Assembly: GCA_026929865.2 (NCBI GenBank)
Contig: JAMBYZ020000024.1
Location: 62,001-126,000 of the forward strand
DNA length: 64,000 nt
Direction of reading: 5' to 3'
Origin: Hyperoplus lanceolatus
Lineage: Eukaryota; Chordata; Actinopteri; Uranoscopiformes; Ammodytidae
Below are positions 1 through 64,000 of this stretch, piece after piece (position 1 is the stretch's first letter; every line of letters begins with the position of its first letter). The position numbers and the translations under genes were made by a program. The notes beneath the pieces were generated by a model that worked only from the letters and a program-made list of their open reading frames with translations, had not been told where the DNA came from and did not search any database.

Positions 1-1249
1 GGGTCGTGAACTATGACCCTGGAGTGGAATTTTCTGGAATAACAGGGCGTTTTTTTTAATTGAATCGAAATCATATCTAATTTGTCTCATATTTTCAAAA
101 TTAGATATGATTTTGGATTCAATTAAAAATTAAAACGCCCTGTTATTCCAGAGTCATTCCACTCCAGGGTCATAGTTCACAACCCCATGAGGTCCCCCAA
201 GAAGTTTCAGGACATTCTGATGTGTGGTTTCAAAATAAAAGCCCACTAGATATTGAAAATATGAGAGAAATTAGATATGATTTTGGATTCAATTTTTAAA
301 AAAACTCCCTGTTATTCCAGAGTCATTCCACTCCAGGGTCATAGTTCACGACCCCATGAGGCCACACAAAAAGTTTCAGGACATTCTGATGTTTAGTTTC
401 AGAATAAAAGCCCACTAGATATTGAACATATGAGAAAAATTAGATATGATTTTGGATTCAATTTAAAAAAAAAACGCCCTGTTATTCCAGAGTCATTCCA
501 CTCCAGGGTCATAGTTCACAACCCCATGAGGTCCCCCAAGAAGTTTCAGGACATTCTGATGTGTAGTTTCAAAATAAAAGCCCACTAGATATTGAAAATA
601 TGAGAGAAATTAGATATGATTTTGGATTCAATTTAAAAAAAAACGCACTGTTATTCCAGAGTCATTCCACTCCAGGGTCATAGTTCACGACCCCGTGAGG
701 TCCCCCAAGACGTTTCAGGACATTCTGATGTGTAGTTTCAGAATAAAGGGCCCACTAGATATTGAAAATATGAGAAAAATTAGATATGATTTTGGATTCA
801 ATTTAAAAAAAAACGCACTGTTATTCCAGAGTCATTCCACTCCAGGGTCATAGTTCACGACCCCATGAGGTCCCCCAAGACGTTTCAGGACATTCTGATG
901 TGTAGTTTCAGAATAAAGGGCCCACTAGATATTGAAAATATGAGAAAAATTAGATATGATTTTGGATTCAATTTAAAAAAAAACGCCCTGTTTTTCCAGA
1001 GTCATTCCACTCCAGGGTCATAGTTCACGACCCCATGAGGCCACACAAAAAGTTTCAGGATATTCTGATGTGTACTTTCAAAATAAAAGCCCACTTGATA
1101 TTGAAAATATCAGAGAAATTAGATATGATTTTGGATTCAATTTTTAAAAAAACACCCTGTTATTCCAGAGTCATTCCACTGCAGGGTCATAATTCACAAC
1201 CCCATGAGGTCACACAAGCAGATTCAGGACATTCTGATGTGTACTTTCA
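1..1249. repeat. Unit U0 (left-truncated): inverted arm 1-96, forward run 97-1249
   Basis: The window opens inside a minus-strand arm, which turns back at 96/97. The forward run of 1153 bp fits k = 6. Copies in order include A, a B-like copy, A, the two F copies, C, and terminal D. The type D copy here has cacaagcagattc rather than cacaagaagattc, a variant shared with the D near 12980. Confidence 0.9.
644..983 (+). repeat. Tandem pair of type F monomers, almost identical
   Basis: Two adjacent 170 bp copies (644-813 and 814-983) share cgcactg, ccaagacgtttcagg and ataaagggcccactag. By eye they differ only once: ccccgtgagg in the first and ccccatgagg in the second. GGGCCC is an ApaI site absent from other subtypes. 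Related copies occur near 13550 and 14390. The pair is probably a recent one-monomer duplication. Confidence 0.85.
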
Positions 1250-2356
1250 GGGTGACCTCATGGGGTGACCTCATGGGGTTGTGAACTTTGACCCTGGAGT
1301 TGAATGACTCTGGAATAACAGGGCGCGTTTTTTAAATTGAATCAATCAAAATCATATCTAATTTCTCTCATATTTTCAATATCAAGTGGGTTTTTATTCT
1401 GAAACTACACATCAGAATGTCCTGAAACTTTGTGGTTGGCCTCATGGGGTCGTGAACTATGACCCTGGAGTGAATTTTTCTGGAATAACAGGGCGTTTTT
1501 TTTTAATTGAATCCGAAATCATATCTAATTTGTCTCATATTTTCAAAATTAGATATGATTTTGGATTCAATTAAAAATTAAAACGCCCTGTTATTCCAGA
1601 GTCATTCCACTCCAGGGTCATAGTTCACAACCCCATGAGGTCCCCCAAGAAGTTTCAGGACATTCTGATGTGTGGTTTCAAAATAAAAGCCCACTAGATA
1701 TTGAAAATATGAGAGAAATTAGATATGATTTTGGATTCAATTTTTAAAAAAACTCCCTGTTATTCCAGAGTCATTCCACTCCAGGGTCATAGTTCACGAC
1801 CCCATGAGGCCACACACAAAGTTTCAGGACATTCTGATGTGTAGTTTCAGAATAAAAGCCCACTAGATATTGAAAATTTGAGAAAAATTAGTTATGATTT
1901 TGGATTCAATTTAAAAAAAAACGCCCTGTTATTCCAGAGTCATTCCACTCCAGGTTCATAGTTCACAACCCCATGAGGTCCCCCAAGAACTTTCAGGACA
2001 TTCTGATGTGTAGTTTCAAAATAAAAGCCCACTAGATATTGAAAATATGAGAGAAATTAGATATGATTTTGGATTCAATTTAAAAAAAAACGCCCTGTTA
2101 TTCCAGAGTCATTCCACTCCAGGGTCATAGTTCACAACCCCATGAGGTCCCCCAAGAACTTTCAGGATATTCTGATGTGTAGTTTCAAAATAAAAGCCCA
2201 CTAGATATTGAAAATAGGAGAGAAATTAGATACGATTTTGGATTCAATTTAAAAAAAAACGCCCTGTTATTCCAGAGTCATTCCACTGCAGGGTCATAAT
2301 TCAGAACCCCATGAGGTCACAAAAGAAGATCCAGGACATTCTGATGTGTACTTTCA
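1250..2356. repeat. Unit U1: inverted arm 1250-1544, forward run 1545-2356 (k=4)
   Basis: The inverted arm has the diagnostic gtggttggcctc, shared with arms near 18920, 26665, 29607, 32668 and 40476. The forward run begins with caattaaaaattaaaacg and includes a copy with aaaatttgagaaaaattagt. Its layout matches U16. Confidence 0.9.
1507..1570. repeat. Turn-back palindrome, junction B (example)
   Basis: Arms of 25 nt (1507-1531 and 1546-1570) are reverse complements with a single mismatch (a CpG in the left arm against TpG in the right). They are separated by a 14 nt spacer, gtctcatattttca. Homology continues outward through the T/A tracts and the cgccctgttattccag region, so the full inverted repeat is well over 100 bp per side. 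The left arm carries marks not seen in ordinary monomers: aatttgtctc (normally aatttctctc) and often tccgaaatc. The same structure recurs in almost every unit. Confidence 0.92.
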
Positions 2357-2948
2357 GGGTGACCTCATGGGGTGACCTCATGGGGTTGTGAACTTTGACC
2401 CTGGAGTTGAATGACTCTGGAATAACAGGGCGTTTTTTTAAATTGAATCCAAAATCATATCTAATTTCTCTCATATTTTCAATATCAAGTGGGCTTATTC
2501 TGAAACTACACATCAGAATGTCCTGAAACTTTGTGTGTGGCCTCATGGGGTCGTGAACTATGACCCTGGAGTGGAAATTTTCTGGAATAACAGGGCGTTT
2601 TTTTAATTGAATCCGAAATCATATCGAATTTGTCTCATATTTTCAAAATTAGATATGATTTTGGATTCAATAAAAAAAAAAACGCCCTGTTATTCCAGAG
2701 TCATTCCACTCCAGGGTCATAGTTCACGACCCCATGAAGCCACACAAAAAGTTTCAGGATATTCTGATGTGTACTTTCAAAATAAAAGCCCACTTGATAT
2801 TGAAAATATCAGAGAAATTAGATATGATTTTGGATTCAATTTTTAAAAAAACTCCCTCTTATTCCAGAGTCATTCCACTGCAGGGTCATAATTTACAACC
2901 CCATGAGGTCACACAAGAAGATTCAGGACATTCTGATGTGTACTTTCA
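2357..2948. repeat. Unit U2: inverted arm 2357-2644, forward run 2645-2948 (k=1)
   Basis: The forward run is just one type C copy plus D. The arm carries atatcgaatttgtctc, an extra CpG variant shared with U7, U17 and U37. The D copy has ctccctcttattccag, also seen in U7. Confidence 0.9.
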
Positions 2949-13013: not shown

Positions 13014-15450
13014 GGGTGACCTCATGGGGGGCCCCATGGGGTTGTGAACTTTGACCCTGTGTGAGAATGACTCTGACGAGAAATTAGACATGATTTTTAA
13101 ACTGAATCAAAATCATCTATCTAACTTCTCAATGTTATTCCAAGAGTCATTCCACACATCAGAATGTCCTGAAACTTTGAGTGACCTCATGAGGTCATGA
13201 TGTGACCCTGAGTGGAATTTTCTGGAATACAGAGGGTGTTTTTTTATTGAATCCGAAATCATATCTAATTTGTCTCATATTTTCAAAATTAGATATGATT
13301 TTGGATTCAATTTAAAAAAAAACGCCCTGTTATTCCAGAGTCATTCCACTCCAGGGTCATAGTTCATAACCCCATGAGGTCCCCCAAGAAGTTTCAGGAC
13401 ATTCTGATGTGTAGTTTCAAAATAAAAGCCCACTAGATATTGAAAATATGAGAAAAATTAGTTATGATTTTGGATTCAATTTAAAAAAAAACGCCCTGTT
13501 ATTCCAGAGTCATTCCACTCCAGGGTCATAGTTCACGACCCCATGAGGTCCCCCAAGACGTTTCAGGACATTCTGATGTGTAGTTTCAGAATAAAGGGCC
13601 CACTAGATATTGAAAATATGAGAAAAATTAGTTATGATTTTGGATTCAATTAAAAAAAAAACGCCCTGTTATTCCAGAGTCATTCCACTCCAGGGTCATA
13701 GTTCACGACCCCATGAGGTCCCCCAAGAAGTTTCAGGACATTCTGATGTGTAGTTTCAGAATAAAAGCCCACTAGATATTGAAAATATGAGAGAAATTAG
13801 ATATGATTTTGGATTCAATTTAAAAAAAAACGCCCTGTTATTCCAGAGTCATTCCACTCCAGGGTCATAGTTCACGACCCCATGAGGCCAAACAAAAAGT
13901 TTCAAGACATTCTGATGTGTAGTTTCAGAATAAAAGCCCAATAGATATTGAAAATATGAGAGAAATTAGATATGATTTTGGATTCAATTTTTTAAAAAAC
14001 TCCCTGTTATTCCAGAGTCATTCCACTCCAGGGTCATAGTTCACGACCCCATGAGGCCACACACAAAGTTTCAGGACATTCTGATGTGTAGTTTCAGAAT
14101 AAAAGCCCACTAGATATTGAAAATATGAGAAAAATTAGATATGATTTTGGATTCAATTTAAAAAAAAACGCCCTGTTATTCCAGAGTCATTCCACTCCAG
14201 GGTCATAGTTCACAACCCCATGAGGTCCCCCAAGAAGTTTCAGGACATTCTGATGTGTAGTTTCAAAAAAAAAGCCCACTAGATATTGAAAATATGAGAG
14301 AAATTAGATATGATTTTGGATTCAATTTAAAAAAAAACGCACTGTTATTCCAGAGTCATTCCACTCCAGGGTCATAGTTCACGACCCCATGAGGTCCCCC
14401 AAGATGTTTCAGGACATTCTGATGTGTACTTTCAGAATAAAGGGCCCACTAGATATTGAAAATATGAGAAAAATTAGTTATGATTTTGGATTCAATTTAA
14501 AAAAAAACGCCCTGTTATTCCAGAGTCATTCCACTCCAGGGTCATAGTTCACAACCCCATGAGGTCACCGAAGAAGTTTCAGGACATTCTGATGTGTAGT
14601 TTCAAAATAAAAGCTCACTAGATATTGAAAATATGAGAGAAATTAGATATGATTTTGGATTCAATTTTTAAAAAAACGCCCTGTTATTCCAGAGTCATTC
14701 CACTCCAGGGTCATAGTTCACGACCCCATGAGGCCACACAAAAAATTCAGGACATTCTGATGTGTAGTTTCAGAATAAAAGCCCACTAGATATTGAAAAT
14801 ATGAGAAAAATTAGATATGATTTTGGATTCAATTTAAAAAAAAAACACCCTGTTATTCCAGAGTCATTCCACTCCAGGGTCATAGTTCACGACCCCATGA
14901 GGTCCCCCAAGAAGTTTCAGGACATTCTGATGTGTAGTTTCAGAATAAAAGCCCACTAGATATTGAAGATATGAGAGAAATTAGATATGATTTTGGATTC
15001 AATTTAAAAAAAAACGCCCTGTTATTCCAGAGTCATTCCACTCCAGGGTCATAGTTCACGACCCCATGAGGCCACACAAAAAGTTTCAAGACATTCTGAT
15101 GTGTAGTTTCAGAATAAAAGCCCACTAGATATTGAAAATATGAGAGCAATTAGATATGATTTTGGATTCAAATTTTTAAAAAAACGCCCTGTTATTCCAG
15201 AGTCATTCCACTCCAGGGTCATAGTTCACGACCCCATGAAGCCACACAAAAAGTTTCAGGATATTCTGATGTGTACTTTCAAAATAAAAGCCCACTTGAT
15301 ATTGAAAATATCAGAGAAATTAGATATGATTTTGGATTCAATTTTTAAAAAAACACCCTGTTATTCCAGAGTCATTCCACTGCAGGGTCATAATTCACAA
15401 CCCCATGAGGTCACACAAGAAGATTCAGGACATTCTGATGTGTACTTTCA
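13014..15450. repeat. Unit U12: inverted arm 13014-13284 (scrambled), forward run 13285-15450 (k=12)
   Basis: This is one of the longest forward runs (2166 bp). It includes two type F-like copies (near 13550 and 14395) and several copies with agttatgatttt. The arm from about 13030 to 13260 is a jumble of plus- and minus-strand fragments. Confidence 0.88.
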
Positions 15451-16383
15451 GGGTGACCTCATGGGGTGACCTCATGGGGTTGTGAACTTTGACCCTGGAG
15501 TTGAATGACTCTGGAATAACAGGGCGTTTTTTTTAAATTGAATCCAAAATCATATCTAATTTCTCTCATATTTTCAATATCAAGTGGGCTTTTATTCTGA
15601 AACTACACATCAGAATGTCCTGAAACTTTGTGTGTGGCCTCATGGGGTCGTGAACTATGAACCTGGAGTGGCATTTCTCTGGAATAACAGGGCGTTTTTT
15701 TTTAATTGAATCCGAAATCATATCTAATTCGTCTCATATTTTCAAAATTAGATATGATTTTGGATTCAATAAAAAAAAACGCCCTGTTATTCCAGAGTCA
15801 TTCCACTCCAGGGTCATAGTTCACAACCCCATGGGGTCCCCCAAGAAGTTTCAGGACATTCTGATGTGTAGTTTCAAAATAAAAGCCCACTAGATATTGA
15901 AAATATGAAAGAAATTAGATATGATTTTGGATTCAATTAAAAAAAAAAACCCCTGTTATTCCAGAGTCATTCCACTCCAGGGTCATAGTTCACAACCCCA
16001 TGAGGTCCCCCAAGAACTTTCAGGACATTCTGATGTGTAGTTTAGAAATAAAAGCCCACTAGATATTGAAAATATGAAAGAAATTAGATATGATTTTGGA
16101 TTCAATTAAAAAAAAAACGCCCTGTTATTCCAGAGTCATTCCACTCCAGGGTCATAGTTCACGACCCCATGAGGCCACACAAAAAGTTTCAGGACATTCT
16201 GATGTGTAGTTTCAGAATAAAAGCCCACTAGATATTGAAAATATCAGAGAAATTAGATATGATTTTGGATTCAATTTTTAAAAAAACACCCTGTTATTCC
16301 AGAGTCATTCCACTGCAGGGTCATAATTCACAACCCCATGAGGTCACACAAGAAGATTCAGGACATTCTGATGTGTACTTTCA
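15451..16383. repeat. Unit U13: inverted arm 15451-15743, forward run 15744-16383 (k=3)
   Basis: The arm has gaacctggagtggcat, marking it as the U5/U9/U15 arm lineage. The copy before D is a B/C hybrid: B on the left, atatcagagaa on the right. Confidence 0.9.
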
Positions 16384-19844: not shown

Positions 19845-20434
19845 GGGTGACCTCATGGGTTGACCTCATGGGGTTGTGAACTTTGACCCTGGAGTTGAAT
19901 GGCTCTGGAATAACAGGGCGTTTTTTTTAAATTGAATCCAAAATCATATCTAATTTCTCTCATATTTTCAATATCAAGTGGGCTTTTATTCTGAAACTAC
20001 ACATCAGAATGTCCTGAAACTTTGTGTGTGGCCTCATGGGGTCGTGAACTATGACCCTGGAGTGGAATTTTTATGGAATAACAGGGCGTTTTTTTTAATT
20101 GAAAATCATATCGAATTTGTCTCATATTTTCACAATTAGATATGATTTTGGATTCAATAAAAAAAAAACGCCCTGTTATTCCAGAGTCATTCCACTCCAG
20201 GGTCATAGTTCACAACCCCATGAGGTCCCCCAAGAAGTTTCAGGACATTCTGATGTGTAGTTTCAAAATAAAAGCCCACTAGATATTGAAAATATGAGAG
20301 AAATTAGATATGATTTTGGATTCAATTTTTAAAAAAACTCCCTGTTATTCCAGAGTCATTCCACTGCAGGGTCATAATTCACTACCCCATGAGGTCACAT
20401 AAGAAGATTCAGGACATTCTGATGTGTACTTTCA
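19845..20434. repeat. Unit U17: inverted arm 19845-20131, forward run 20132-20434 (k=1)
   Basis: This has the same size and atatcgaatttgtctc arm variant as U2. The single full forward copy, however, is type A rather than type C. Confidence 0.9.
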
Positions 20435-21993
20435 GGGTAGACCCCATGAGGGTGAAAACCTCATGGGAACTTAGATTGATTTGACCCTGGAAAAAGAGGG
20501 CGTTTTTTATTGAACAAACTCATGTCTATTTCTCATATTTTCAATATCCACTGAGGGTCTTATTCTGAAACTACCCATGAGGTCACACAAGAATTTTCAG
20601 GACATTCTGGTGTTTTTTTTAAATTGAATCCAAAATCATATCTAATATTGAAAATATTTTCAAAATTAGATATGATTTTGGATTCAATAAAAAAAAAACT
20701 CTGTTATTCCAGAGTCATTCCACTCCAGGGTCATAGTTAACAACCCCATGAGGTCCCCCAAGAAGTTTCAGGACATTCTGATGAGTACTTTCAGGGTGAC
20801 CTCATGGGGTTGACCCTCTGGGATTCTGAACTTTCAGAAATTAGACTATGATTTTGGATTCAACAAAAAAAAAAACGCCCTGTTATTCCAGAGTCATTCC
20901 ACTCCAGGGGTCATAGTTCACAACCCCATGGGGTCCCCCAAGAAGTTTCAGGACATTCTGATGTGTAGTTTCAATTGAATCCAAATCATATCTAATATTG
21001 TCTAATATTTTCAAAATTAGATATGATTTTGGATTCAATAAAAAAAAAAACACCCTGTTATTCCAGAGTCATTCCACTCCAGGGTCATAGTTCACAACCC
21101 CATGAGGTCCCCCAAGAACTTTCAGGACATTCTGATGTGTAGTTTCAAAATAAAAGCCCACTAGATATTGAAAATATGAGTGAAATTAGATATGATTTTG
21201 GATTCAATTTAAAAAAAAACGCCCTGTTATTCCAGAGTAATTCCACTCCAGGGTCATAGTTCACAACCCCATGAGGTCCCCCGAGAAGTTTCAGGACATT
21301 CTGGTGTGTGGTTTCAAAATAAAAGCCCACTAGATATTGAAAATATGAGAGAAATTAGATATGATTTTGGATTCAATTTTTAAAAAAAACTCCCTGTTAT
21401 TCCAGAGTCATTCCACTCCAGGGTCATAGTTCACGACCCCATGAGGCCACACACAAAGTTTCTGGACATTCTGAAGTGTAGTTTCAGAATAAAAGCCCAC
21501 TAGATATTGAAAATCTGAGAAAAATTAGTTATGATTTTGGATTCAATTTAAAAAAAAAACGCCCTGTTATTCCAGAGTCATTCCACACCAGGGTCATAGT
21601 TCACAACCCCATGAGGTCCCCCAAGAACTTTCAGGACATTCTGATGTGTAGTTTCAAAATAAAAGCCCACTAGATATTGAAAATATGAGAGAAATTAGAT
21701 ATGATTTTGGATTCAATTTAAAAAAAAACGCCCTGTTATTCCAGAGTCATTCCACTCCAGGGTCATAGTTCACAACCCCATGAGGTCCCCCAAGAACTTT
21801 CAGGATATTCTGATGTGTAGTTTCAAAATAAAAGCCCACTAGATATTGAAAATATGAGAGAAATTAGATACGATTTTGGATTCAATTTAAAAAAAACGCC
21901 CTGTTATTCCAGAGTCATTCCACTGCAGGGTCATAATTCAGAACCCCATGAGGTCACACAAGAAGATTCAGGACATTCTGATGTGTACTTTCA
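20435..21993. repeat. Unit U18: disordered unit, arm 20435-20661, forward run 20662-21993 with broken junctions
   Basis: The arm is short (227 bp) and scrambled. Inside the forward run is an abortive junction A at 20804-20836, which goes straight back to forward sequence. There is also an isolated 39 bp minus-strand stretch at about 20974-21012 with its own turn-back. The run length (1332 bp) therefore does not fit the ladder exactly. Confidence 0.82.
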
Positions 21994-23982: not shown

Positions 23983-26487
23983 GGGTGACTCATGGGGTGA
24001 CCTCATGGGGTTGTGAACTTTGACCCTGAGGTGACTCTGGAATAACAGGGCGTTTTTTTAAATTGAATCCAGAATCACCTATCTAATTTGTGATCATATT
24101 TTCAAAATTAGATATGATTTTGGATTCTGAAACTACACATCAGAATGTGCTGAATTTTGTAGGTTATTCCACTCCAGGGTCATGAGTTCACGACCCCATG
24201 AGGTCCCCCAAGAAGTTTCAGGACATTCTGATGTGTAGTTTCAAAATGAAAGCCCACTAATATTGTATCATATTTTAAAAATTAGATATGATTTTGGATT
24301 CAATTAAAAATTAAAACGCCCTGTTATTCCAGAGTCATTCCACTCCAGGGTCATAGTTCACAACCCCATGAGGTCCCCCAAGAAGTTTCAGGACATTCTG
24401 ATGTGTAGTTTCAAAATAAAAGCCCACTAGATATTGAAAATATGAGAGAAATTAGATATGATTTTGGATTCAATTTAAAAAAACTCCCTGTTATTCCAGA
24501 GTCATTCCACTCCAGGGTCATAGTTCACGACCCCATGAGGCCCCACAAAAAGTTTCAGGACATTCTGATGTGTAGTTTCAGAATAAAAGCCCACTAGATA
24601 TTGAAAATATGAGAAAAATTAGATATGATTTTGGATTCAATAAAAAAAAAACGCCCTGTTATTCCAGAGTCATTCCACTCCAGGGTCATAGTTCACAACC
24701 CCATGAGGTCCCCCAAGAAGTTTCAGGACATTCTGATGTGTACTTTCAGGGTGGAATAGGAAAGCCCATCTAGATATTGAAAATATGAGAGAAATTAGAT
24801 ATGATTTTGGATTCAATTTTAAAAAAAAAACGCCCTGTTATTCCAGAGTCATTCCACTCCAGGGTCATAGTTCACAACCCCATGAGGTCGACACAAGAAG
24901 TTTCAGGACATTCTGATGTGTATTTTCAAAATAAAAGCCCACTAGATATTGAAAATATCTAAGTTGAGAAATTAGATATGATTTTGGATTCAATAAAAAA
25001 AACGCCCTGTTATTCCAGAGTCATTCCACTCCAGGGTCATAGTTCACGACCCCATGAGGTCCCCCAAGAAGTTTCAGGACATTCTGATGTGTACTTTCAA
25101 AATAAAAGCCCACTAGATATTGAAAATATGAGAGAAATTAGATATGATTTTGGATTCAATTTTAAAAAAACTCCCCGTTATTCCAGAGTCATTCCACTCC
25201 AGGGTCATAGTTCACGACCCCAGGGCAAAAAGTTCAGGACATTCTGAACTAGATAAACCTGATTTTGAAAATTCAATTAGATATGATTTTGAAATTTTAA
25301 AAAAAACGCCCTGTTATTCCAGAGTCATTCCACTCCAGGGTCATAGTTCACGACCCCATGAGGTCACACAAGAAGTTTCAGGACATTCTGATGTGTACTG
25401 TTCAGGGTGCTTCTTGGGGGGTCCTCTTGGGGTTTTGGAGTTGGCCCTGGGGTTGAATGTTTTTTTTTTTTTAAATCAAAGCCCACTTGATATTGTCTAA
25501 AATTTCAGAGAAATTAGATATGATTTTGGATTCAATATTAAAAAAACTCCCTGTTATTCCAGAGTCATTCCACTCCAGGGTCATAGTTAACAACCCCATG
25601 AGGTCCCCCAAGAAGTTTCAGGACATTCTGATGTGTAGTTTCAAAATGAAAGCCCACTAGATATTGAACATATGAAAGAAATTAGATATTATTTTGGATT
25701 TAATTTAAAAAAAAACGCCCTGTTATTCCAGATTCATTCCACTCCAGGGTCATAGTTCACAACCCCATGAGGTCCCCCAAGAACTTTCAGGATATTCTGA
25801 TGTGTAGTTTCAAAATAAAAGCCCACTAGATATTGAAAATATGAGAGAAATTAGATATGATTTTGGATTCAATTTTAAAAAAAAACGCCCTGTTATTCCA
25901 GAGTCATTCCACTCCAGGGTCATAGTTCACAACCCCATGAAGCCACACAAAAAGTTTCAGGATATTCTGATGTGTACTTTCAAAATAAAAGCCCACTTGA
26001 TATTGAAAATATCAGAGAAATTAGATATGATTTTGGATTCAATTAAAAAAAAACGCCCTGTTATTCCAGAGTCATTCCACTCCAGGGTCATAGTTCACGA
26101 CCCCATGAGGCCACACAAAAAGTTTCAGGACATTCTGATGTGTAGTTTCAGAATAAAAGCCCACTAGATATTGAAAATATGAGAGCAATTAGATATGATT
26201 TTGGATTCAATTTTAAAAAAACGCCCTGTTATTCCAGAGTCATTCCACTCCAGGGTCATAGTTCACGACCCCATGAAGCCACACAAAAAGTTTCAGGATA
26301 TTCTGATGTGTACTTTCAAAATAAAAGCCCACTTGATATTGAAAATATCAGAGAAATTAGATATTATTTTGGATTCAATTTTTAAAAAAACTCCCTGTTA
26401 TTCCAGAGTCATTCCACTGCAGGGTCATAATTCACAACCCCATGAGGTCACACAAGAAGATTCAGGACATTCTGATGTGTCCTTTCA
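23983..26487. repeat. Unit U21: disordered unit, arm 23983-24103, forward run 24104-26487 with remnants
   Basis: The arm is short. A second minus-strand scrap follows at about 24124-24155, and a damaged turn-back near 24260 (tgtatcatattttaaaaat). Junction-A-like remnants occur near 24749 (ctttcagggtggaatagg) and 25404-25476, the latter with a degraded minus-strand piece and a long T run. A truncated monomer lies at about 25220-25310. From about 25590 the copies are regular again. Confidence 0.8.
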
Positions 26488-27252
26488 GGGTGACCTCATG
26501 GGGTGACCTCATGGGGTTGTGAACTTTGACCCTGGAGTTGAATGACTCTGGAATAACAGGGCGTTTTTTTAAATTGAATCCAGAATCATATCTAATTTCT
26601 CTCATATTTTCAATATCAAGTGGGCTTTTATTCTGAAACTACACATCAGAATGTCCTGAAACTTTGTGGTTGGCCTCATGGGGTCGTGAACTATGACCCT
26701 GGAGTGGAATTTTTCTGGAATAACAGGGCGTTTTTTTTTAATTGAATCCGAAATCATATCTAATTTGTCTCATATTTTCAAAATTAGATATGATTTTGGA
26801 TTCAATTAAAAATTAAAACGCCCTGTTATTCCAGAGTCATTCCACTCCAGGGTCATAGTTCACAACCCCATGAGGTCCCCCAAGAAGTTTCAGGACATTC
26901 TGATGTGTGGTTTCAAAATAAAAGCCCACTATATATTGAAAATATGAGAGAAATTAGATATGATTTTGGATTCAATTTTAAAAAAAACTCCCTGTTATTC
27001 CAGAGTCATTCCACTCCAGGGTCATAGTTCACGACCCCATGAGGCCACACACAAAGTTTCAGGACATTCTGATGTGTAGTTTCAGAATAAAAGCCCACTA
27101 GATATTGAAAATTTGAGAAAAATTAGTTATGATTTTGGATTCAATTAAAAAAAAACGCCCTGTTATTCCAGAGTCATTCCACTGCAGGGTCATAATTCAC
27201 AACCTCATGAGGTCACATAAGAAGATTCAGGACATTCTGATGTGTACTTTCA
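26488..27252. repeat. Unit U22: inverted arm 26488-26779, forward run 26780-27252 (k=2)
   Basis: This has the gtggttggcc arm and caattaaaaattaaaacg start. It is near-identical to U25 at an offset of 2938 bp. The D copy has cctcatgaggtcacataag, also as in U25. Confidence 0.9.
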
Positions 27253-27647
27253 AGGTGAGCCTCATGGGGTGACCTCATGGGGTTGTAAACTTTGACCCTG
27301 AGATTGGATATGATTTTGGATTCAATTTGAATCCAAAAAACCCCTCTTATTCTCATAGTTTTCAATATCTAAAGGGTCTTTATTCTGAAACTCACATCAG
27401 AAGTCCTGAAACTTTTATGTGGCATGTCTGATGTGTCAGGGGATTTTCTGGAATAACAGGGCGTTTTTTTTAATTGAATCCGAAATCATATCTAATTTAT
27501 CTCATATTTTCAAAATTAGATATGATTTTGGATTCAATAAAAAAAAAAAACACCCTGTTATTCCAGAGTCATTCCACTCCAGGGTCATAGTTAACAACCC
27601 CATGAGGTCCCCCAAGAAGTTTCAGGACATTCTGATGTGTACTTTCA
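27253..27647. repeat. Unit U23: scrambled arm 27253-27511, minimal forward run 27512-27647 (k=0)
   Basis: After the turn-back only 136 bp of forward sequence precede the next junction A, and this copy is type A rather than D at its end. The arm between about 27300 and 27440 is badly degraded, whereas its counterpart U26 is clean. Confidence 0.85.
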
Positions 27648-29425
27648 GGGTGACCTCATGGGGTGACCTCATGGGGTTGTGAACTTTGACCCTGGAGTTG
27701 AATGACTCTGGAATAACAGGGCGTTTTTTTAAATTGAATCCAAAATCATATCTAATTTCTCTCATATTTTCAATATCAAGTGGGCTTTTATTTGAAACTA
27801 CACATCAGAATGTCCTGAAACTAGGTGTGTGGCCTCATGGGGTCGTGAACTCATGACCCTGGAGTGGAATTTTCTGGAATAACAGGGGCGAATTTTTTCG
27901 GAATAAAAGAATTCATATCTAATTTGTCTCATATTTTCAAAATTAGATATGATTTTGGATTCAATTAAAAAAAAAACGCCCTGTTATTCCAGAGTCATTC
28001 CACTCCAGGGTCATAGTTCACAACCCCATGAGGTCCCCCAAGAAGTTTCAGGACATTCTGATGTGTAGTTTCAAAATAAAAGCCCACTAGATATTGAAAA
28101 TATGAGAGAAATTAGATATGATTTTGGATTCAATTTTTAAAAAAACTCCCCGTTAATCCAGAGTCATTCCACTCCAGGGTCATAGTTCACGACCCCATGA
28201 GGCCACACAAAAAGTTTCAGGACATTCTGATGTGTAGTTTCAGAATAAAAGCCCACTAGATATTGAAAATATGAGAGCAATTAGATATGATTTTGGATTC
28301 AATTTTTAAAAAAACGCCCTGTTATTCCAGAGTCATTCCACTCCAGGGTCATAGTTCACGACCCCATGAAGCCACACAAAAAGTTTCAGGATATTCTGAT
28401 GTGTACTTTCAAAATAAAAGCCCACTTGATATTGAAAATATCAGAGAAATTAGATATTATTTTGGATTCAATTTTTAAAAAAACTCCCTGTTATTCCAGA
28501 GTCATTCCACTGCAGGGTCATAATTCACAACCCCATGAGGTCCCCCAAGAAGTTTCAGGACATTCTGATGTGTAGTTTCAAAATGAAAGCCCACTAGATA
28601 TTGAACATATGAAAGAAATTAGATATTATTTTGGATTTAATTTAAAAAAAAACGCCCTGTTATTCCAGATTCATTCCACTCCAGGGTCATAGTTCACAAC
28701 CCCATGAGGTCCCCCAAGAACTTTCAGGATATTCTGATGTGTAGTTTCAAAATAAAAGCCCACTAGATATTGAAAATATGAGAGAAATTAGATATGATTT
28801 TGGATTCAATTTAAAAAAAAACGCCCTGTTATTCCAGAGTCATTCCACTCCAGGGTCATAGTTCACAACCCCATGAAGCCACACAAAAAGTTTCAGGATA
28901 TTCTGATGTGTACTTTCAAAATAAAAGCCCACTTGATATTGAAAATATCAGAGAAATTAGATATGATTTTGGATTCAATTAAAAAAAAAACGCCCTGTTA
29001 TTCCAGAGTCATTCCACTCCAGGGTCATAGTTCACGACCCTATGAGGCCACACAAAAAGTTTCAGGACATTCTGATGTGTAGTTTCAGAATAAAAGCCCA
29101 CTAGATATTGAAAATATGAGAGCAATTAGATATGATTTTGGATTCAATTTTTAAAAAAACGCCCTGTTATTCCAGAGTCATTCCACTCCAGGGTCATAGT
29201 TCACGACCCCATGAAGCCACACAAAAAGTTTCAGGATATTCTGATGTGTACTTTCAAAATAAAAGCCCACTTGATATTGAAAATATCAGAGAAATTAGAT
29301 ATTATTTTGGATTCAATTTTTAAAAAAACTCCCTGTTATTCCAGAGTCATTCCACTGCAGGGTCATAATTCACAACCCCATGAGGTCACACAAGAAGATT
29401 CAGGACATTCTGATGTGTCCTTTCA
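27648..29425. repeat. Unit U24: inverted arm 27648-27938, forward run 27939-29425 (k=8)
   Basis: The run includes ctccccgttaatccag (shared with U27), tagatattattttgg copies, and a stretch from about 28530 that repeats about 25595-26487 of U21 at a 2937 bp offset. Confidence 0.9.
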
Positions 29426-30189
29426 GGGTGACCTCATGGGGTGACCTCATGGGGTTGTGAACTTTGACCCTGGAGTTGAATGACTCTGGAATAACAGGGC
29501 GTTTTTTTTAAATTGAATCCAGAATCATATCTAATTTCTCTCATATTTTCAATATCAAGTGGGCTTTTATTCTGAAACTACACATCAGAATGTCCTGAAA
29601 CTTTGTGGTTGGCCTCATGGGGTCGTGAACTATGACCCTGGAGTGGAATTTTCTGGAATAACAGGGCGTTTTTTTAATTGAATCCGAAATCATATCTAAT
29701 TTGTCTCATATTTTCAAAATTAGATATGATTTTGGATTCAATTAAAAATTAAAACGCCCTGTTATTCCAGAGTCATTCCACTCCAGGGTCATAGTTCACA
29801 ACCCCATGAGGTCCCCCAAGAAGTTTCAGGACATTCTGATGTGTGGTTTCAAAATAAAAGCCCACTATATATTGAAAATATGAGAGAAATTAGATATGAT
29901 TTTGGATTCAATTTTTAAAAAAACTCCCTGTTATTCCAGAGTCATTCCACTCCAGGGTCATAGTTCACGACCCCATGAGGCCACACACAAAGTTTCAGGA
30001 CATTCTGATGTGTAGTTTCAGAATAAAAGCCCACTAGATATTGAAAATTTGAGAAAAATTAGTTATGATTTTGGATTCAATTAAAAAAAAAACGCCCTGT
30101 TATTCCAGAGTCATTCCACTGCAGGGTCATAATTCACAACCTCATGAGGTCACATAAGAAGATTCAGGACATTCTGATGTGTACTTTCA
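29426..30189. repeat. Unit U25: inverted arm 29426-29715, forward run 29716-30189 (k=2)
   Basis: This is a near-copy of U22 with the same A-to-A length (764 versus 765 bp). Confidence 0.9.
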
Positions 30190-30619
30190 GGGTGACCTCA
30201 TGGGGTGACCTCATGGGGTTGTGAACTTTGACCCTGGAGTTGAATGACTCTGGAATAACAGGGCGTTTTTTTTAAATTGAATCCAAAATCATATCTAATT
30301 TCTCTCATATTTTCAATATCAAGTGGGCTTTTATTCTGAAACTACACATCAGAATGTCCTGAAACTTTTTGTGTGGCCTCATGGGGTCGTGAACTATGAC
30401 CCTGGAGTGGAATTTTTCTGGAATAACAGGGCGTTTTTTTTTTTAATTGAATCCGAAATCATATCTAATTTATCTCATATTTTCAAAATTAGATATGATT
30501 TTGGATTCAATAAAAAAAAAAACACCCTGTTATTCCAGAGTCATTCCACTCCAGGGTCATAGTTAACAACCCCATGAGGTCCCCCAAGAAGTTTCAGGAC
30601 ATTCTGATGTGTACTTTCA
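30190..30619. repeat. Unit U26: inverted arm 30190-30484, minimal forward run 30485-30619 (k=0)
   Basis: This is a clean minimal unit of 430 bp, made of one inverted arm and 0.8 forward monomer. The turn-back has aatttatctc instead of aatttgtctc, shared with U23 and U30, so the three minimal units are related. Confidence 0.92.
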
Positions 30620-31555
30620 GGGTGACCTCATGGGGTGACCTCATGGGGTTGTGAACTTTGACCCTGGAGTTGAATGACTCTGGAATAACAGGAGGGGGTG
30701 GTTTTTTAAATTGAATCCAAAATCATATCTAATTTCTCTCATATTTTCAATATCAAGTGGGCTTTTATTCTGAAACTACACATCAGAATGTCCTGAAACT
30801 TTGTGTGTGGCCTCATGGGGTCGTGAACTATGACCCTGGAGTGGAATTTTCTGGAATAACAGGGCGTTTTTTTTAATTGAATCCGAAATCATATCTAATT
30901 TGTCTCATATTTTCAAAATTAGATATGATTTTGGATTCAATAAAAAAAAAACGCCCTGTTATTCCAGAGTCATTCCACTCCAGGGTCATAGTTCACAACC
31001 CCATGAGGTCCCCCAAGAAGTTTCAGGACATTCTGATGTGTAGTTTCAAAATAAAAGCCCACTAGATATTGAAAATATGAGAGAAATTAGATATGATTTT
31101 GGATTCAATTTTTAAAAAAACTCCCCGTTAATCCAGAGTCATTCCACTCCAGGGTCATAGTTCACGACCCCATGAGGCCACACAAAAAGTTTCAGGACAT
31201 TCTGATGTGTAGTTTCAGAATAAAAGCCCACTAGATATTGAAAATATGAGAGCAATTAGATATGATTTTGGATTCAATTTTTAAAAAAACGCCCTGTTAT
31301 TCCAGAGTCATTCCACTCCAGGGTCATAGTTCACGACCCCATGAAGCCACACAAAAAGTTTCAGGATATTCTGATGTGTACTTTCAAAATAAAAGCCCAC
31401 TTGATATTGAAAATATCAGAGAAATTAGATATTATTTTGGATTCAATTTTTAAAAAAACTCCCTGTTATTCCAGAGTCATTCCACTGCAGGGTCATAATT
31501 CACAACCCCATGAGGTCACACAAGAAGATTCAGGACATTCTGATGTGTACTTTCA
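30620..31555. repeat. Unit U27: inverted arm 30620-30914, forward run 30915-31555 (k=3)
   Basis: The arm has a local change near 30690 (acaggagggggtggtttttt). The run is A, B with ctccccgttaatccag, C with tagatattattttgg, then D. Confidence 0.9.
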
Positions 31556-32491
31556 GGGTGACCTCATGGGGTGACCTCATGGGGTTGTGAACTTTGACCC
31601 TGGAGTTGAATGACTCTGGAATAACAGGGCGTTTTTTTTAATTGGAATCGAAATCATATCTAATTTGTCTCATATTTTCAAAATTAGATATGATTTTGGA
31701 TTCAATTAAAAAAAAAAACACCCTGTTATTCCAGAGTCATTCCACTCCAGGGTCATAGTTAACAACCCCATGAGGTCCCCCAAGAAGTTTCAGGACATTC
31801 TGATGTGTAGTTTCAAAATAAAAGCCCACTAGATATTGAACATATGAAAGAAATTAGATATGATTTTGGATTTAATTTAAAAAAAAACGCCCTGTTATTC
31901 CAGATTCATTCCACTCCAGGGTCATAGTTCACAACCCCATGAGGTCCCCCAAGAACTTTCAGGACATTCTGATGTGTAGTTTCAAAATAAAAGCCCACTA
32001 GATATTGAAAATATGAGAGAAATTAGATATGATTTTGGATTCAATTTAAAAAAAAACGCCCTGTTATTCCAGAGTCATTCCACTCCAGGGTCATAGTTCA
32101 CAACCCCATGAAGCCACACAAAAAGTTTCAGGACATTCTGATGTGTAGTTTCAGAATAAAAGCCCACTAGATATTGAAAATATGAGAGCAATTAGATATG
32201 ATTTTGGATTCAATTTTTAAAAAAATGCCCTGTTATTCCAGAGTCATTCCACTCCAGGGTCATAGTTCACGACCCCATGAAGCCAAACAAAAAGTTTCAG
32301 GATATTCTGATGTGTACTTTCAAAATAAAAGCCCACTTGATATTGAAAATATCAGAGAAATTAGATATTATTTTGGATTCAATTTTTTAAAAAACTCCCT
32401 GTTATTCCAGAGTCATTCCACAGCAGGGTCATAATTCACAACCCCATGAGGTCACACAAGAAGATTCAGGACATTCTGATGTGTCCTTTCA
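31556..32491. repeat. Unit U28: short inverted arm 31556-31679 (124 bp), forward run 31680-32491 (k=4)
   Basis: The arm is clean but lacks exactly one monomer (124 versus about 292 bp). The first inverted segment runs directly to the turn-back. The run carries gaacatatgaaag and ccagattcattcc. Confidence 0.92.
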
Positions 32492-48731: not shown

Positions 48732-48997
48732 CGCCCTGTTATTCCAGAGTCATTCCACTCCAGGGTCATAGTTCACGACCCCATGAAGCCACACAAAAAG
48801 TTTCAGGATATTCTGATGTGTAGTTTCAAAATAAAAGCCCACTTGATATTGAAAATATCAGAGAAATTAGATATGATTTTGGATTCAATTTTTAAAAAAA
48901 CACCCTGTTATTCCAGAGTCATTCCACTGCAGGGTCATAATTCACAACCCCATGAGGTCACACAAGAAGATTCAGGACATTCTGATGTGTACTTTCA

Positions 48998-54733: not shown

Positions 54734-55458
54734 TTGTGAACTTTGACCCTGGAGTTGAATGACTCTGGAATAACAGGGCGTTTTTTTAAATTGAATCCAA
54801 AATCATACCTAATTTCTCTCATATTTTCAATATCAAAGATTTGGATTTATGAAACTACACATCAGAATGTCCTGAAACTTTGTGTCGGGGTCATGAGGTC
54901 GTGAACCCCTGGGGTGGAATTTTCTGGAATAACAGGGAGTTTTTATTTGAATCCGAAATCATATCTAATTTGTCTCATATTTTCAAAATTAGATATGATT
55001 TTGGATTCAATAAAAAAAAAAACGCCCTGTTATTCCAGAGTCATTCCACTCCAGGGTCATAGTTCACAACCCCATGAAGTCCCCCAAGAAGTTTCAGGAC
55101 ATTCTGATGTGTAGTTTCAAAATAAAAGCCCACTAGATATTGAAAATATGAAAGAAATTAGATTTGTTTTTGGATTCAATTAAAAAAAAACGCCCTGTTA
55201 TTCCAGAGTCATTCCACTCCAGGGTCATAGTTCACAACCCCATGAGGTCCCCCAAGAAGTTTCAGGACATTCTGATGTGTAGTTTCAAAATAAAAGCCCA
55301 CTAGATATTGAAAATATGAAAGAAATTATATATGATTTTGGATTCAATTAAAAAAAAAAAACACCCTGTTATTCCAGAGTCATTCCACTGCAGGGTCATA
55401 ATTCACAACCCCATGAGGTCACACAAGAAGATTCAGGACATTCTGATGTGTACTTTCA
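54705..55458. repeat. Unit U46: inverted arm 54705-54984, forward run 54985-55458 (k=2)
   Basis: The arm is damaged at about 54836-54945 (agatttggatttatg, gtgaacccctggggtgg). The forward run is A, A, D with no type C. Confidence 0.9.
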
Positions 55459-56672
55459 GGGTGACCTCATGGGGTGACCTCATGGGGTTGTGAACTTTGA
55501 CCCTGGAGTTGAATGACTCTGGAATAACAGATATGATTTTGGATTCAATTAAAAAAAAAACGCCCTGTTATTCCAGAGTCATTCCACTCCAGGGTCATAG
55601 TTCACAACCCCATGAGGTCCCCCAAGAAGTTTCAGGACATTCTGATGTGTAGTTTCAAAATAAAAGCCCACTAGATATTGAAAATATGAATGAAATTAGA
55701 TATGATTTTGGATTCAATTAAAAAAAAAACGCCCTGTTATTCCAGAGTCATTCCACTCCAGGGTCATAGTTCACAACCCCATGAGGTCCCCCAAGAAGTT
55801 TCAGGACATTCTGATGTGTAGTTTCAAAATAAAAGCCCACTAGATATTGAAAATATGAATGAAATTAGATATGATTTTGGATTCAATTAAAAAAAAAAAC
55901 GCCCTGTTATTCCAGAGTCATTCCACTCCAGGGTCATAGTTCACAACCCCTAGAGGTCCCCCAAGAAGTTTCAGGACATTCTGATGTGTAGTTTCAGAAT
56001 AAAAGCCCACTAGATATTGAAAATATGAGAGAAATTAGATATGATTTTGGATACAATTTAAAAAAAAACGCCCTGTTATTCCAGAGTCATTCCACTCCAG
56101 GGTCATAGTTCACAACCCCATGAGGTCACCCAAGTAGTTTCAGGACATTCTGATGTGTAGTTTCAAAATAAAAGCCCACTAGATATTGAAAATATGAGAG
56201 AAATTAGATATGATTTTGGATTCAATTTTTTAAAAAACGCCCTGTTATTCCAGAGTCATTCCACTCCAGGGTTATAGTTCACGACCCCATGAGGCCACAC
56301 AAAAAGTTTCAGGACATTCTGATGTGTAGTTTCAGAATAAAAGCCCACTAGATATTGAAAATATGAGAGAAATTAGATATGATTTTGGATTCAATTTTTA
56401 AAAAAACGCCCTGTTATTCCAGAGTCATTCCACTCCAGGGTCATAGTTCACGACCCCATGAAGCCATACAAAAAGTTTCAGGATATTCTGATGTGTACTT
56501 TCAAAATAAAAGCCCACTTGATATTGAAAATATCAGAGAAATTAGATATGATTTTGGATTCAATTTTTAAAAAAACACCCTGTTATTCCAGAGTCATTCC
56601 ACTGCAGGGTCATAATTCACAACCCCATGAGGTCACACAAGAAGATTCAGGACATTCTGATGTGTACTTTCA
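55459..56672. repeat. Unit U47: arm cut short 55459-55530 (72 bp), forward run from ~55531 to 56672
   Basis: The inverted sequence stops at ggaataacag and jumps directly to forward atatgattttggattc with no turn-back palindrome. Both sides are otherwise clean, so this looks like a precise internal deletion. Later monomers include E and B copies. Confidence 0.9.
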
Positions 56673-57440
56673 GGGTGACCTCATGGGGTGACCTCATGGG
56701 GTTGTGAACTTTGACCCTGGAGTTGAATGACTCTGGAATAACAGGGCGTTTTTTTTAAATTGAATCCAAAATCATATCTAATTTGTCTCATATTTTCAAA
56801 ATTAGATATGATTTTGGATTCAATAAAAAAAAAAACGCCCTGTTATTCCAGAGTCATTCCACTCCAGGGTCATAGTTCACAACCCAATGAGGTCCCCCAA
56901 GAAGTTTCAGGACATTCTGATGTGTAGTTTCAAAATAAAAGCCCACTAGATATTGTAAAATATGTTAAAAATTAGATATGATTTTGGATTCAAAATTAAA
57001 AAAAAACGCCCTGTTATTCCAGAGTCATTCCACTCCAGGGTCATAGTTCACAACCCCATGAGGTCCCCCAAGAAGTTTCAGGACATTCTGATGTGTAGTT
57101 TCAAAATAAAAGCCCACTAGATATTGAAAATATGAAAGAAATTAGATATGATTTTGGATTCAATTAAAAAAAAACGCCCTGTTATTCCAGAGTCATTCCA
57201 CTCCAGGGTCATAGTTCACAACCCCATGAGGCCCCACAAAAAGTTTCAGGACATTCTGATGTGTAGTTTCAAAATAAAAGCCCACTAGATATTGAAAATA
57301 TGAGAGAAATTAGATATGATTTTGGATTCAATTTTTAAAAAAACACCCTGTTATTCCAGAGTCATTCCACTCCAGGGTCATAATTCACAACCCCATGAGG
57401 TCACACAAGAAGATTCAGGACATTCTGATGTGTACTTTCA
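56673..57440. repeat. Unit U48: short inverted arm 56673-56797 (125 bp), forward run 56798-57440 (k=3)
   Basis: This has a clean one-monomer-short arm. The copy just after it has a local change (attgtaaaatatgttaaaaa, about 56953-56972). The D here has ccactccagg, so its CTGCAG is lost. Confidence 0.92.
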
Positions 57441-59630: not shown

Positions 59631-60570
59631 GGGTGACCTCATGGGGTGACCTCATGGGGTTGTGAACTTTGACCCTGGAGTTGAATGACTCTGGAAATAA
59701 AAAAAAAGGCCGTTTTTCCAAATTCATTCCACTGAGTCATATCACATCAAAATTTCTCTATTTTCAATATCAAGTGGACTTTTATTCTGAACTACAGGGT
59801 CATAGTTCAGAACCTGTGTGTGCCTCATGGGGTGGTCTATGACCCCAAGAAGTAGGACATTCTGATGTGCAATAACAAAAGGCCCGTTTTTTATTTGAAT
59901 CCAAATTATCTAATTTGTCTCATATTTTCAAAATTAGATATGATTTTGGATTCAATAAAAAAAAAAACGCCCTGTTATTCCAGAGTCATTCCACTCCAGG
60001 GTCATAGTTCACAACCCCATGAGGTCCCCCAAGAAGTTTCAGGACATTCTGATGTGTAGTTTCAAAATAAAAGCCCACTAGATATTGAAAATATGAAAGA
60101 AATTAGATATGATTTTGGATTCAATTAAAAAAAAAACGCCCTGTTATTCCAGAGTCATTCCACTCCAGGGTCATAGTTCACAACCCCATGAGGTCACCCA
60201 AGAAGTTTCAGGACATTCTGATGTGTAGTTTCAAAATAAAAGCCCACTAGATATTGAAAATATGAGAGAAATTAGATATGATTTTGGATTCAATTTTAAA
60301 AAAACGCCCTGTTATTCCAGAGTCATTCCACTCCAGGGTCATAGTTCACGACCCCATGAGGCCACACAAAAAGTTTCAGGACATTCTGATGTGTAGTTTC
60401 AAAATAAAAGCCCACTTGATATTGAAAATATCAGAGAAATTAGATATGTTTTTGGATTCAATTTTTAAAAAAACACCCTGTTATTCCAGAGTTATTCCAC
60501 TGCAGGGTCATAATTCACAACCCCATGAGGTCACACAAGAAGATTCAGGACATTCTGATGTGTACTTTCA
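59631..60570. repeat. Unit U51: scrambled arm 59631-59929, forward run 59930-60570 (k=3)
   Basis: The arm is disordered from about 59694 to 59890, with plus-strand scraps (cattccactgagtcatatc, gggtcatagttcagaacc) mixed into the minus-strand sequence. The forward run is clean. Confidence 0.87.
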
Positions 60571-62890: not shown

Positions 62891-62915
62891 GGGTGACCTC
62901 ATGGGGTGACCTCAT

Positions 62916-62934
62916 GGGGGGGGGGGGGGGGGGG
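62916..62934. repeat. Homopolymer run of 19 G
   Basis: This is the only G run of this length seen in the window. It sits exactly where minus-strand sequence should start after ctcatgggg. A sequencing or consensus fault at a fold-back site is more likely than real sequence. Confidence 0.9.
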
Positions 62935-63216
62935 TCCCTGAAGTTTCAGGACATTCTGGAACTGTGTAGTTTCAAAATCGAAACACTTTGTCTCATATAT
63001 TTCAAAATTAGATATGATTTTGGATTCAATAAAAAAAAAAACGCCCTGTTATTCCAGAGTCATTCCACTCCAGGGTCATAGTTCACAACCCCATGAGGTC
63101 CCCCAAGAAGTTTCAGGACATTCTGATGTGTAGTTTCAAAATAAAAGCCCACTAGATATTGAAAATATGAGAGAAATTAGATATGATTTTGGATTCAATT
63201 TAAAAAAAAACACCCT

Positions 63217-64000
63217 GTTATTCCAGAGTCATTCCACTCCAGGGTCATAGTTAATAACCCCACGAAGTCCCCCAGGAACTTTCAGGACATTCTAATGTGT
63301 ATTTTCAAAATAAAAGCCCACTAGATATTGAAAATATGAGAGAAATTAGATATGATTTTGGATTCAATTTTTAAAAAAACGCCCTGTTATTCCAGAGTCA
63401 TTCCACTCCAGGGTCATAGTTCACGACCCCATGAGGCCACACAAAAAGTTTCAGGACATTCTGATGTGTAGTTTCAGAATAAAAGCCCACTAGATATTGA
63501 AAATATGAGAAAAATTAGATATGATTTTGGATTCAATTTAAAAAAAAACGCCCTGTTATTCCAGAGTCATTCCACTCCAGGGTCATAGTTCACAACCCCA
63601 TGAGGTCCCCCAAGAAGTTTCAGGACATTCTGATGTGTAGTTTCAGAAAAAAAGCCCACTAGATATTGAAAATATGAGAGAAATTAGATATGATTTTGGA
63701 TTCAATTTAAAAAAAAACACCCTGTTATTCCAGGGTCATTCCACTCCAGGGTCATAGTTAATAACCCCACGAAGTCCCCCAGGAACTTTCAGGACATTCT
63801 AATGTGTATTTTCAAAATAAAAGCCCACTAGATATTGAAAATATGAGAGAAATTAGATATGATTTTGGATTCAATTTTTAAAAAAACGCCCTGTTATTCC
63901 AGAGTCATTCCACTCCAGGGTCATAGTTCACGACCCCATGAGGCCACACAAAAAGTTTCAGGACATTCTGATGTGTAGTTTCAGAATAAAAGCCCACTAG
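63217..64000 (+). repeat. Three-monomer forward repeat, 507 bp period
   Basis: The rare copy with gttaataaccccacgaag and ttctaatgtgtattttc occurs with gttaataac at 63250 and 63757, exactly 507 bp apart (3 x 169). Each time it is followed by a type B copy. A third instance is at 61650, again followed by B and then A. Confidence 0.88.

Follow-up and report, generated by a model that had tools for sequence, protein, structure and literature searches.

A satellite array of Hyperoplus lanceolatus with a recurring inverted arm between two conserved junctions

Introduction

According to excerpts of the Tribolium madens satellite paper, no satellite arrays with macro-dyad symmetries have been documented outside Tribolium (PMC13081366). 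In the same excerpts, the T. madens satellite TmSat1 carries recurrent conserved inversion sites, INV_1a and INV_1b, each with its own diverged subunits, as does the array described here (PMC13081366). The 704-bp minor satellite TmSat2 likewise consists of one basic unit (~110 bp there) in both orientations, with inverted halves of ~300 bp, a predicted large hairpin and a putative (peri)centromeric location (PMC13081366). Long inverted segments (~470 bp) also occur in the 1061-bp satellite of Tribolium brevicornis, there as a fixed intramonomeric palindrome (PMC13081366). Among teleosts, the centromeric satellite of medaka, whose genome is similar in size, also forms arrays in which monomer types are grouped; the excerpted account leaves inverted arms unmentioned, and its sole use of "inverted" refers to the drawing of a chromosome (PMC5705604).

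Here we describe a 64-kb stretch (the window) of contig JAMBYZ020000024.1 of Hyperoplus lanceolatus, called C44 below.

Results

The whole window is a single array of a ~169-bp satellite, as seen by TRF and by BLAST of a 167-bp consensus. In the BLAST map of this consensus, 49,539 bp match on the plus strand and 11,708 bp on the minus strand, and plus runs alternate across the window with short minus arms. Long head-to-tail runs of similar non-coding monomers, as in tandem satellite DNA, make up both the window and the rest of C44, the coverage of the latter excluding positions 60,001-61,099 and two transposon insertions whose look points to a fish, probably a teleost.

1..64000 (C44:62001-126000), no strand assigned: ~169-bp satellite array (TRF, BLAST map, genome position)

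With its nucleosome-length monomer, the array looks like a (peri)centromeric satellite; the genome has ~807 Mb, and the array would be located at a centromere. CpG was counted 548 times against 2165 expected, a shortfall that says little because the monomer consensus itself has one CpG. An Rfam scan gave no match; an exact 22-mer of the monomer was absent from the viral and genome contigs searched; distant BLAST of 848 bases against plasmids and phages gave no match; and six monomer words of 17-21 bases were printed in no paper of the literature searched.

About 52 short minus arms lie in the window (49-55 depending on the counting rule). Merging yields 49 minus segments, three of which contain two arms each, hence 52, the first being cut by the window edge. 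On the plus strand, 55 monomers end truncated at position ~134, and a minus match lies at most 60 bp beyond that end in 51 of them. The arms are composed of the satellite's own monomer, reversed, over ~265 bp or ~1.6 monomers, and stand between the same two junctions, A and then B. The original prediction of an arm recurring in constant layout some 54 times in 64 kb was right about the layout, and the count is here ~52. The arms are very probably real, and their layout is unusual. One module may serve as an example.

1116..1249, plus strand: last forward monomer before A, type T (carries CTGCAG and stops at monomer position 134; class consensus built from 55 such monomers)
1245..1278, plus strand: junction A, TTTCA joined to the doubled 13-mer (GGGTGACCTCATG x2.3; site search, TRF 13-bp rows)
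1265..1531, minus strand: inverted arm, positions 98 to 1 (type arm_a), followed by one complete monomer from 167 to 1 (type m)
1520..1557, plus strand: junction B, 11-bp stem ends flanking a loop of ~14-16 nt (site search, folds)
1546..1713, plus strand: first forward monomer after B, mostly of type a

Type a opens 47 of the 57 forward runs, a few of these runs starting at gaps instead of at B. At least 10 arms are shortened, scrambled or in part absent.

20434..21014, no strand assigned: scrambled module or modules, with fragmentary arms and truncated monomers
31551..31692, no strand assigned: short arm, one whole arm monomer absent (A to B just 104 bp)
56668..56810: second short arm (A to B 105 bp)
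22917-23004, 27249-27487, 38133-38373, 55454-55530, 59626-59905, 60566-60745 and 62891-63005: further arms of this kind

Junction A is a doubled 13-mer that follows a truncated, usually CTGCAG-bearing monomer. Searched over 34 bp with up to 9 mismatches, it occurs 50 times on the plus strand of the window and never on the minus strand (39 copies exact), with no matches in 20 base-shuffles of the window; at the same cut-off, C44 holds 108 A sites. With 5 mismatches allowed, the 38 bp of junction B match 49 times on plus and never on minus, 37 copies being exact; with 8 allowed, monomer borders within the arms also matched. The truncated last monomers contain CTGCAG in 48 of 55 cases, and 48 of the 50 CTGCAG sites in the window lie inside them, the sequence context being nearly the same at all 50. 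Similarly, TTTGTCTCATATTTTCAA is found exactly at 44 places in the window, every one of them a B site. The variants at A (CTGCAG, doubled 13-mer) and at B are thus private to the junctions, as had been proposed, and conserved inversion sites with private subunits, which characterize macro-dyads of the Tribolium type, are present in this fish.

Eight of the nine contigs sampled (C44, C392, C408, C164, C79, C515, C433 and C70) carry both junctions, and they do so in either contig orientation; some of the sampled contigs may be alleles or misplaced copies of a single locus. The 3.2 kb examined of C525 consist of 20 forward monomers and contain no arm. Therefore, one ancestral fold-back module was amplified. 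The sharing of A, B and the class variants by most copies, on eight of nine contigs, likewise bears out the earlier view that a single inverted module multiplied and inversion did not recur.

Between arms lie 1-18 forward monomers, both in the window and in 94 of 100 C44 intervals; of the six dropped, runs of 23 and 18 monomers span the transposon insertions, and four are off the lattice. A 168.75-bp lattice describes the lengths of the window's forward runs with a mean deviation of 8 bp, against a mean of 34 (smallest 28) for 200 random sets fitted on a coarser grid. Under a geometric law of equal mean, the 94 intervals show 14 runs of 1-2 monomers where 32 are expected and 53 runs of 3-6 monomers where 35 are expected. 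Some stretches are free of arms for 17-18 monomers. A true higher-order repeat is found at C44:23,446-32,348, with a 2.97-kb unit that contains three arms; its other copies share 99.1% and 96.7% identity with the middle one. A fixed multi-monomer unit is seen in that part (23.4-32.3 kb), and unit length varies in the window. An arm "in every higher-order unit" does not describe the window, as no single unit runs through it and forward monomers differ greatly in number from run to run; the expected minimal A-to-A unit of ~430 bp, however, was found, at 430 and 427 bp.

25473..30236, plus strand: recent duplication (25473-27300 against 28412-30236, 98.7% identical, 2,939-bp shift, arms included)
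30185..30614, plus strand: minimal A-to-A unit of 430 bp, a single truncated forward monomer between two arms (TRF period-430 row)

The 2.97-kb repeat and the 98.7% duplication in the window therefore point to amplification in blocks.

In 24 clean modules (full-length, C44:7,000-34,000), arms are 98.7% alike, and they are 87.6% and 91.2% identical to their own right and left flanks, values lowered by one-monomer runs that put the next arm in the flank blocks. We found no self-excess of arms with their own flanks, either in these modules (p 0.70 and 0.91) or in the window, where 39 modules gave p 0.79 and 0.50 and an identity of 90.5% to the own right flank. Arms match other arms rather than their own hairpin partners. 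The similarity between arms showed no relation to distance or to flank similarity; therefore, conversion shuffling must be assumed beyond simple block duplication.

The arms also differ individually. In 37 of the 39 window modules (those at 30185 and 33581 were left out, their right flank entering the next arm), singleton substitutions per kb per copy were 17.1 in arms versus 2.4 and 3.5 in flanks, and singleton gap cells 10.3 versus 0.4 and 1.1. An extended alignment, limited to the 30 of 39 modules whose flanks were of sufficient length, showed up to 18 singletons per 30 bp in the far right flank as well (270-330 bp past B), where monomer types are mixed. The changes are uneven, with three arms holding 35, 28 and 19 of 140 in these 30 modules. 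Noisy arms lie, for instance, at window positions 4554, 13009 and 59626, and a clean module at 15446. In a survey of 92 of the 99 paired C44 modules (full-length arms, 60,001-62,000 excluded), arms at 7-34 kb were mostly clean; in the 10 modules at 120-140 kb, flanks differed from consensus by a median of 0.5 columns and arms by 18 of ~308. Transition and transversion counts of the singletons gave no clear split of errors from mutations.

Discussion

The fold-back module probably arose once by template switches and then spread by unequal exchange and conversion, most likely without selection for pairing. Two close switches during replication or repair would have created it. Forward synthesis would halt at monomer position 134 and jump to the opposite strand near position 98, forming junction A with at most ~1 bp of microhomology and a 13-bp stutter; copying would then run backward for ~265 bp and jump forward again over a ~16-nt loop at junction B, with ~2-4 bp of microhomology. 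These breakpoints were read by eye from the consensus, and the microhomology lengths are approximate. Module anatomy and junctions are shared among copies, the number of forward monomers varies in monomer steps, and duplications have occurred recently. Unequal exchange and gene conversion would spread the module along with the rest of the array, and may also insert and delete whole forward monomers between modules. The homogeneity of arms and junctions could also reflect constraint. Moreover, the deficit of runs of 1-2 monomers and the excess of runs of 3-6 are not obvious under pure random exchange.

Hairpin or polarity-switch roles for the arms are possible. Recurrent long hairpins or cruciforms might mark centromeric chromatin, as proposed for centromeric dyads and Tribolium macro-dyads, although we consider this unlikely. 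In one clean module, the predicted hairpins on the two sides are strong and of near-equal energy.

15170..15719, plus strand: left hairpin, the two monomers before A pairing with the arm via loop A (DNA fold -241.8 kcal/mol, z -37.6)
15480..16015, plus strand: right hairpin, the arm pairing with the next two forward monomers via loop B (DNA fold -234.5 kcal/mol, z -35.7)

A second module also folds into a strong predicted hairpin, and each arm could in principle fold with either side. Centromeres without a CENP-B box tend to rely on dyads, and the window has no match to the CENP-B box motif, TTCGNNNNANNCGGG, with one mismatch allowed, though chance alone predicts only 2.8; this too would suit a hairpin role, as would the high homogeneity of the clean-stretch arms and the paucity of very short forward runs. 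Furthermore, in many taxa centromeres are reported to be enriched in short dyad symmetries, for which a part in specification is proposed, in excerpts of the T. madens paper (PMC13081366). However, matching is not maintained between an arm and its own partners, and the array tolerates short, scrambled and missing arms as well as the long arm-free stretches. Most likely, the module is carried along and is not selected for pairing.

A reversed piece of its own sequence would give the array a route by which its polarity can flip. If an arm recombined with a forward monomer, stretches of array could be inverted and macro-dyad symmetries created. Such an event is suggested by C515:84,001-93,000, where the overall polarity of the array turns from minus to plus at a B junction (~89.3 kb); the monomer beside this junction reads as arm type m with type T, in place of arm_a, joined to it. 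This is, however, one instance in ~0.19 Mb examined, misassembly could produce the same picture, and the scanned parts of C44 (without 60,001-61,099) keep a single polarity throughout. That arms act as polarity-switch sites is, on this evidence, quite unlikely.

That the excess of changes is real, driven by hairpin mutation in fast-decaying arms, is very unlikely. The singleton rates would fit it, and the rise in the far right flank means that the arms are not the only site of the excess. But the adjoining monomers, the would-be pairing partners, are not raised, most changes sit in few arms, and flanks at C44:120-140 kb are near consensus while the arms beside them differ; we therefore rejected fast decay as the main cause. 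Most likely, the excess singletons and indels are consensus errors of nanopore type, made at inverted duplicates, as the arm differences here follow the pattern published for nanopore reads of genuine inverted duplicates (PMC7229812). Such an origin would itself speak for physical inversions. The many unique differences in arms, some of them garbled, might seem to mark the arms themselves as assembly or read artefacts, but this is highly improbable given fixed junctions and private variants in more than 100 copies on eight contigs in both orientations, the mostly clean arms at C44:7-34 kb, and the concentration of differences in the arm that matches the published pattern (PMC7229812, in part). 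Fold-back transposon insertions were rejected, as the arms contain satellite sequence alone and no element sequence of their own. As a practical warning, inverted arms of satellites can probably gather nanopore consensus errors that resemble fast evolution.

The closest architecture described is that of TmSat1 and TmSat2 of T. madens. The original prediction knew of no described family with this architecture; TmSat1 and TmSat2 do resemble it, but their inversion layout, as excerpted, differs (PMC13081366). In TmSat2, the inversion lies inside a monomer of fixed length, whereas here a ~265-bp arm stands in a forward array at variable intervals (PMC13081366, in part). Its host is unrelated, and the likeness is one of architecture. 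The TmSat1 sites part multi-kilobase subarrays of opposite polarity (same excerpts, PMC13081366); here A and B enclose ~1.6 monomers, after which polarity returns, save on C515. In a search for printed satellites with inverted monomers, only the Tribolium paper came close, by title, within a literature largely free of subscription papers.

A bolder, rather unlikely reading would see a vertebrate satellite with a built-in self-complementary switch: a fixed ~265-bp reverse arm every few monomers, able to pair with either side about equally in single-stranded DNA or RNA, in arrays that flip polarity. Vertebrate centromere-type arrays would then have the organization in hairpins and macro-dyads that has to date been reported from Tribolium beetles alone, arisen independently and possibly maintained for chromatin, as a hairpin mark or a source of double-stranded RNA. 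With arms homogenized among themselves and not with their own hairpin partners, the array is a natural place to ask whether dyad symmetry of centromere-type DNA is under selection or just tolerated. A fixed, recurring fold-back arm in a fish array would extend a principle related to that of the Tribolium satellites beyond beetles.

Results

The whole window is a single array of a ~169-bp monomer (TRF); it spans positions 62,001-126,000 on C44, a 141,624-bp contig of an assembly totaling 806,742,258 bp in 527 contigs. A 167-bp consensus monomer matched 49,539 bp on the plus strand and 11,708 bp on the minus strand (BLAST). Plus runs stop at about monomer position 134. Junction A comes next, followed by a minus arm that is usually 250-270 bp long and covers positions 98 to 1 of one monomer and then all of another (167 to 1); past junction B, the plus strand resumes from position 1. 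Short or broken arms occur in some modules. The arm total in the window is 49 to 55, depending on the rule applied: 55 truncated T monomers (the last forward monomer before A) were found, 51 of them with a minus match within 60 bp, and the 49 merged minus segments, three of which hold two arms each, give 52 arms. The original prediction of 54 units, each with one inverted arm, is a fair count. Short plus-strand pieces within minus arms (window 4743-4801 and 27303-27352) represent either local re-inversions or consensus scrambling. TRF also reported some 339-bp dimer periods in the window, where adjoining monomer types follow no clear alternation.

Both junctions have one orientation in the window. 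The A word gave 50 plus and no minus matches (39 exact), and the B word 49 plus and no minus matches (37 exact). The T monomer shows several departures from the bulk consensus, among them CTGCAG, which had been proposed as a private variant at A and is indeed present in 48 of 55 T monomers. The full (m) and partial (arm_a) arm monomers each carry their own consensus differences, and forward monomers sort into linked types a to f. Since the order of types recurs (c directly before T in 26/50 runs, a as first monomer in 47/57), while arm-to-arm intervals on C44 span 1 to 18 forward monomers (mean 5.3; 94 of 100 intervals usable), the neighborhood of an arm is largely fixed, yet how many forward monomers separate two arms is free to vary. 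Forward runs in the window lengthen by 168.75-bp steps. Very short runs are rarer on C44 than a geometric law predicts, which speaks against purely random exchange. Arm-free runs of 18 monomers (window 45996-48997) and 12 monomers (60899-62890) were also seen; such long runs show that arms are not evenly kept.

Elsewhere on C44, junctions A and B are equally numerous (47 each in 1-60,000, one each in 61,100-62,000 and 10 each in 126,001-141,624), with a single polarity throughout. A true higher-order repeat lies at C44:23,446-32,348; its ~2.97-kb unit has three arms, spaced by 9, 1, and 3 forward monomers, and the outer copies share 99.1% and 96.7% identity with the middle one. Two insertions interrupt the array.

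Transposon insertions in the array
C44:3,161-5,842: two elements with a scrap of satellite between
C44:20,371-21,991: reverse transcriptase fragment

We take the first to be a LINE-like ORF plus a hAT-like inverted-repeat element of teleost type; the second, with an RVT_1 match (E 2.7e-15), is presumably a teleost LINE fragment. The size of the genome is also consistent with a fish.

Monomer matches were found on at least 25 contigs among the best 40 of 2273 first-look candidates scored. Eight of nine contigs sampled carry both junctions (C44, C392, C408, C164, C79, C515, C433, and C70), and the 3.2 kb sampled of C525 hold 20 forward monomers and no arm. In C515:84,001-93,000, a B junction (around 5032-5350 of the segment) marks a change of overall polarity, minus before it and plus after it, and an m-type monomer is joined there directly to a T-type one. 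This may be an array-scale inversion through an arm, possibly a macro-dyad center, or a misjoin.

Discussion

Arms carry far more private differences than their flanks. Singleton substitutions per kb per copy were 17.1 in arms, 2.4 in the left flank, and 3.5 in the right, and singleton gap cells 10.3, 0.4, and 1.1, respectively (37 of 39 modules). When the alignment was extended (30 modules), the excess started ~60 bp past A and dropped at B; at the far right end (~270-330 bp past B), where monomer types are mixed, it rose again, with as many as 18 singletons in 30 bp. The excess is patchy, most of it lying in a few arms. Among 10 modules at C44:120-140 kb, the median columns off consensus were 0.5 in flanks and 18 of ~308 in arms; at C44:7-34 kb most arms are clean. 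Excerpts of one report describe that the accuracy of nanopore reads of inverted duplicates falls past the junction, over the length of the preceding complement (PMC7229812). An arm has complements on both sides, so that reads of either strand would meet it as the second half; each flank would be read first by one strand, and fewer errors would be expected there. This strand order predicts errors mainly in the arm, matching the observed excess, which we infer to be nanopore-type error at inverted duplicates. If so, the inversions are present in the molecules themselves, and the apparent decay of arms should not be read as evolution. The fold-back arms are very probably real; any function of theirs is unproven.

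As single-stranded DNA, the arm is predicted to pair with either side: for one clean module, folding gave -241.8 kcal/mol with the left (z -37.6) and -234.5 with the right (z -35.7), and for a second module -257.8 kcal/mol (z -42). Arms matched their own partners no better than those of other modules, either in the 39 window modules (p 0.79 right, 0.50 left) or in 24 clean ones (p 0.70 and 0.91, respectively). In the clean stretch, arm-arm identity was 98.7%, against 87.6% for arm versus right flank and 91.2% versus left flank, some of these flanks extending into the neighboring arm; window modules gave 90.5% for arm versus own right flank. Being more alike among themselves than to their own partners, arms are therefore homogenized with arms. 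Neither module set gave any sign of correction within the hairpin, and arm similarity tracked neither distance nor flank similarity in them. Because arms match their own partners no better than others and some are short or broken, passive carriage is favored over selection for pairing; a loose structural role is possible.

By eye, forward TTTCA abuts the reverse strand at A, where there is a 13-bp stutter and the overlap is ~1 base at most, and B passes from reverse to forward across a ~16-nt loop with ~2-4 shared bases. Judged from these junctions, two template switches would produce such a forward-reverse-forward order with short overlaps, and the arm may have formed in this way. A replication-based model exists for inverted triplications (PMC10766183). 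The module would then have spread by block duplication, which is supported by a 98.7% copy inside the window and by the higher-order repeat on C44.

The nearest published likeness found is in the satellites of Tribolium madens, for which excerpts of the report describe kilobase-scale macro-dyads, inversion sites that have conserved, diverged subunits of their own and, for TmSat2, inverted halves of ~300 bp (PMC13081366). As far as those excerpts go, a conserved, amplified inversion site is common to both systems; unlike in T. madens, two sites in the C44 array enclose an arm of 1.6 monomers, and the spacing of these arms along the forward array is variable.
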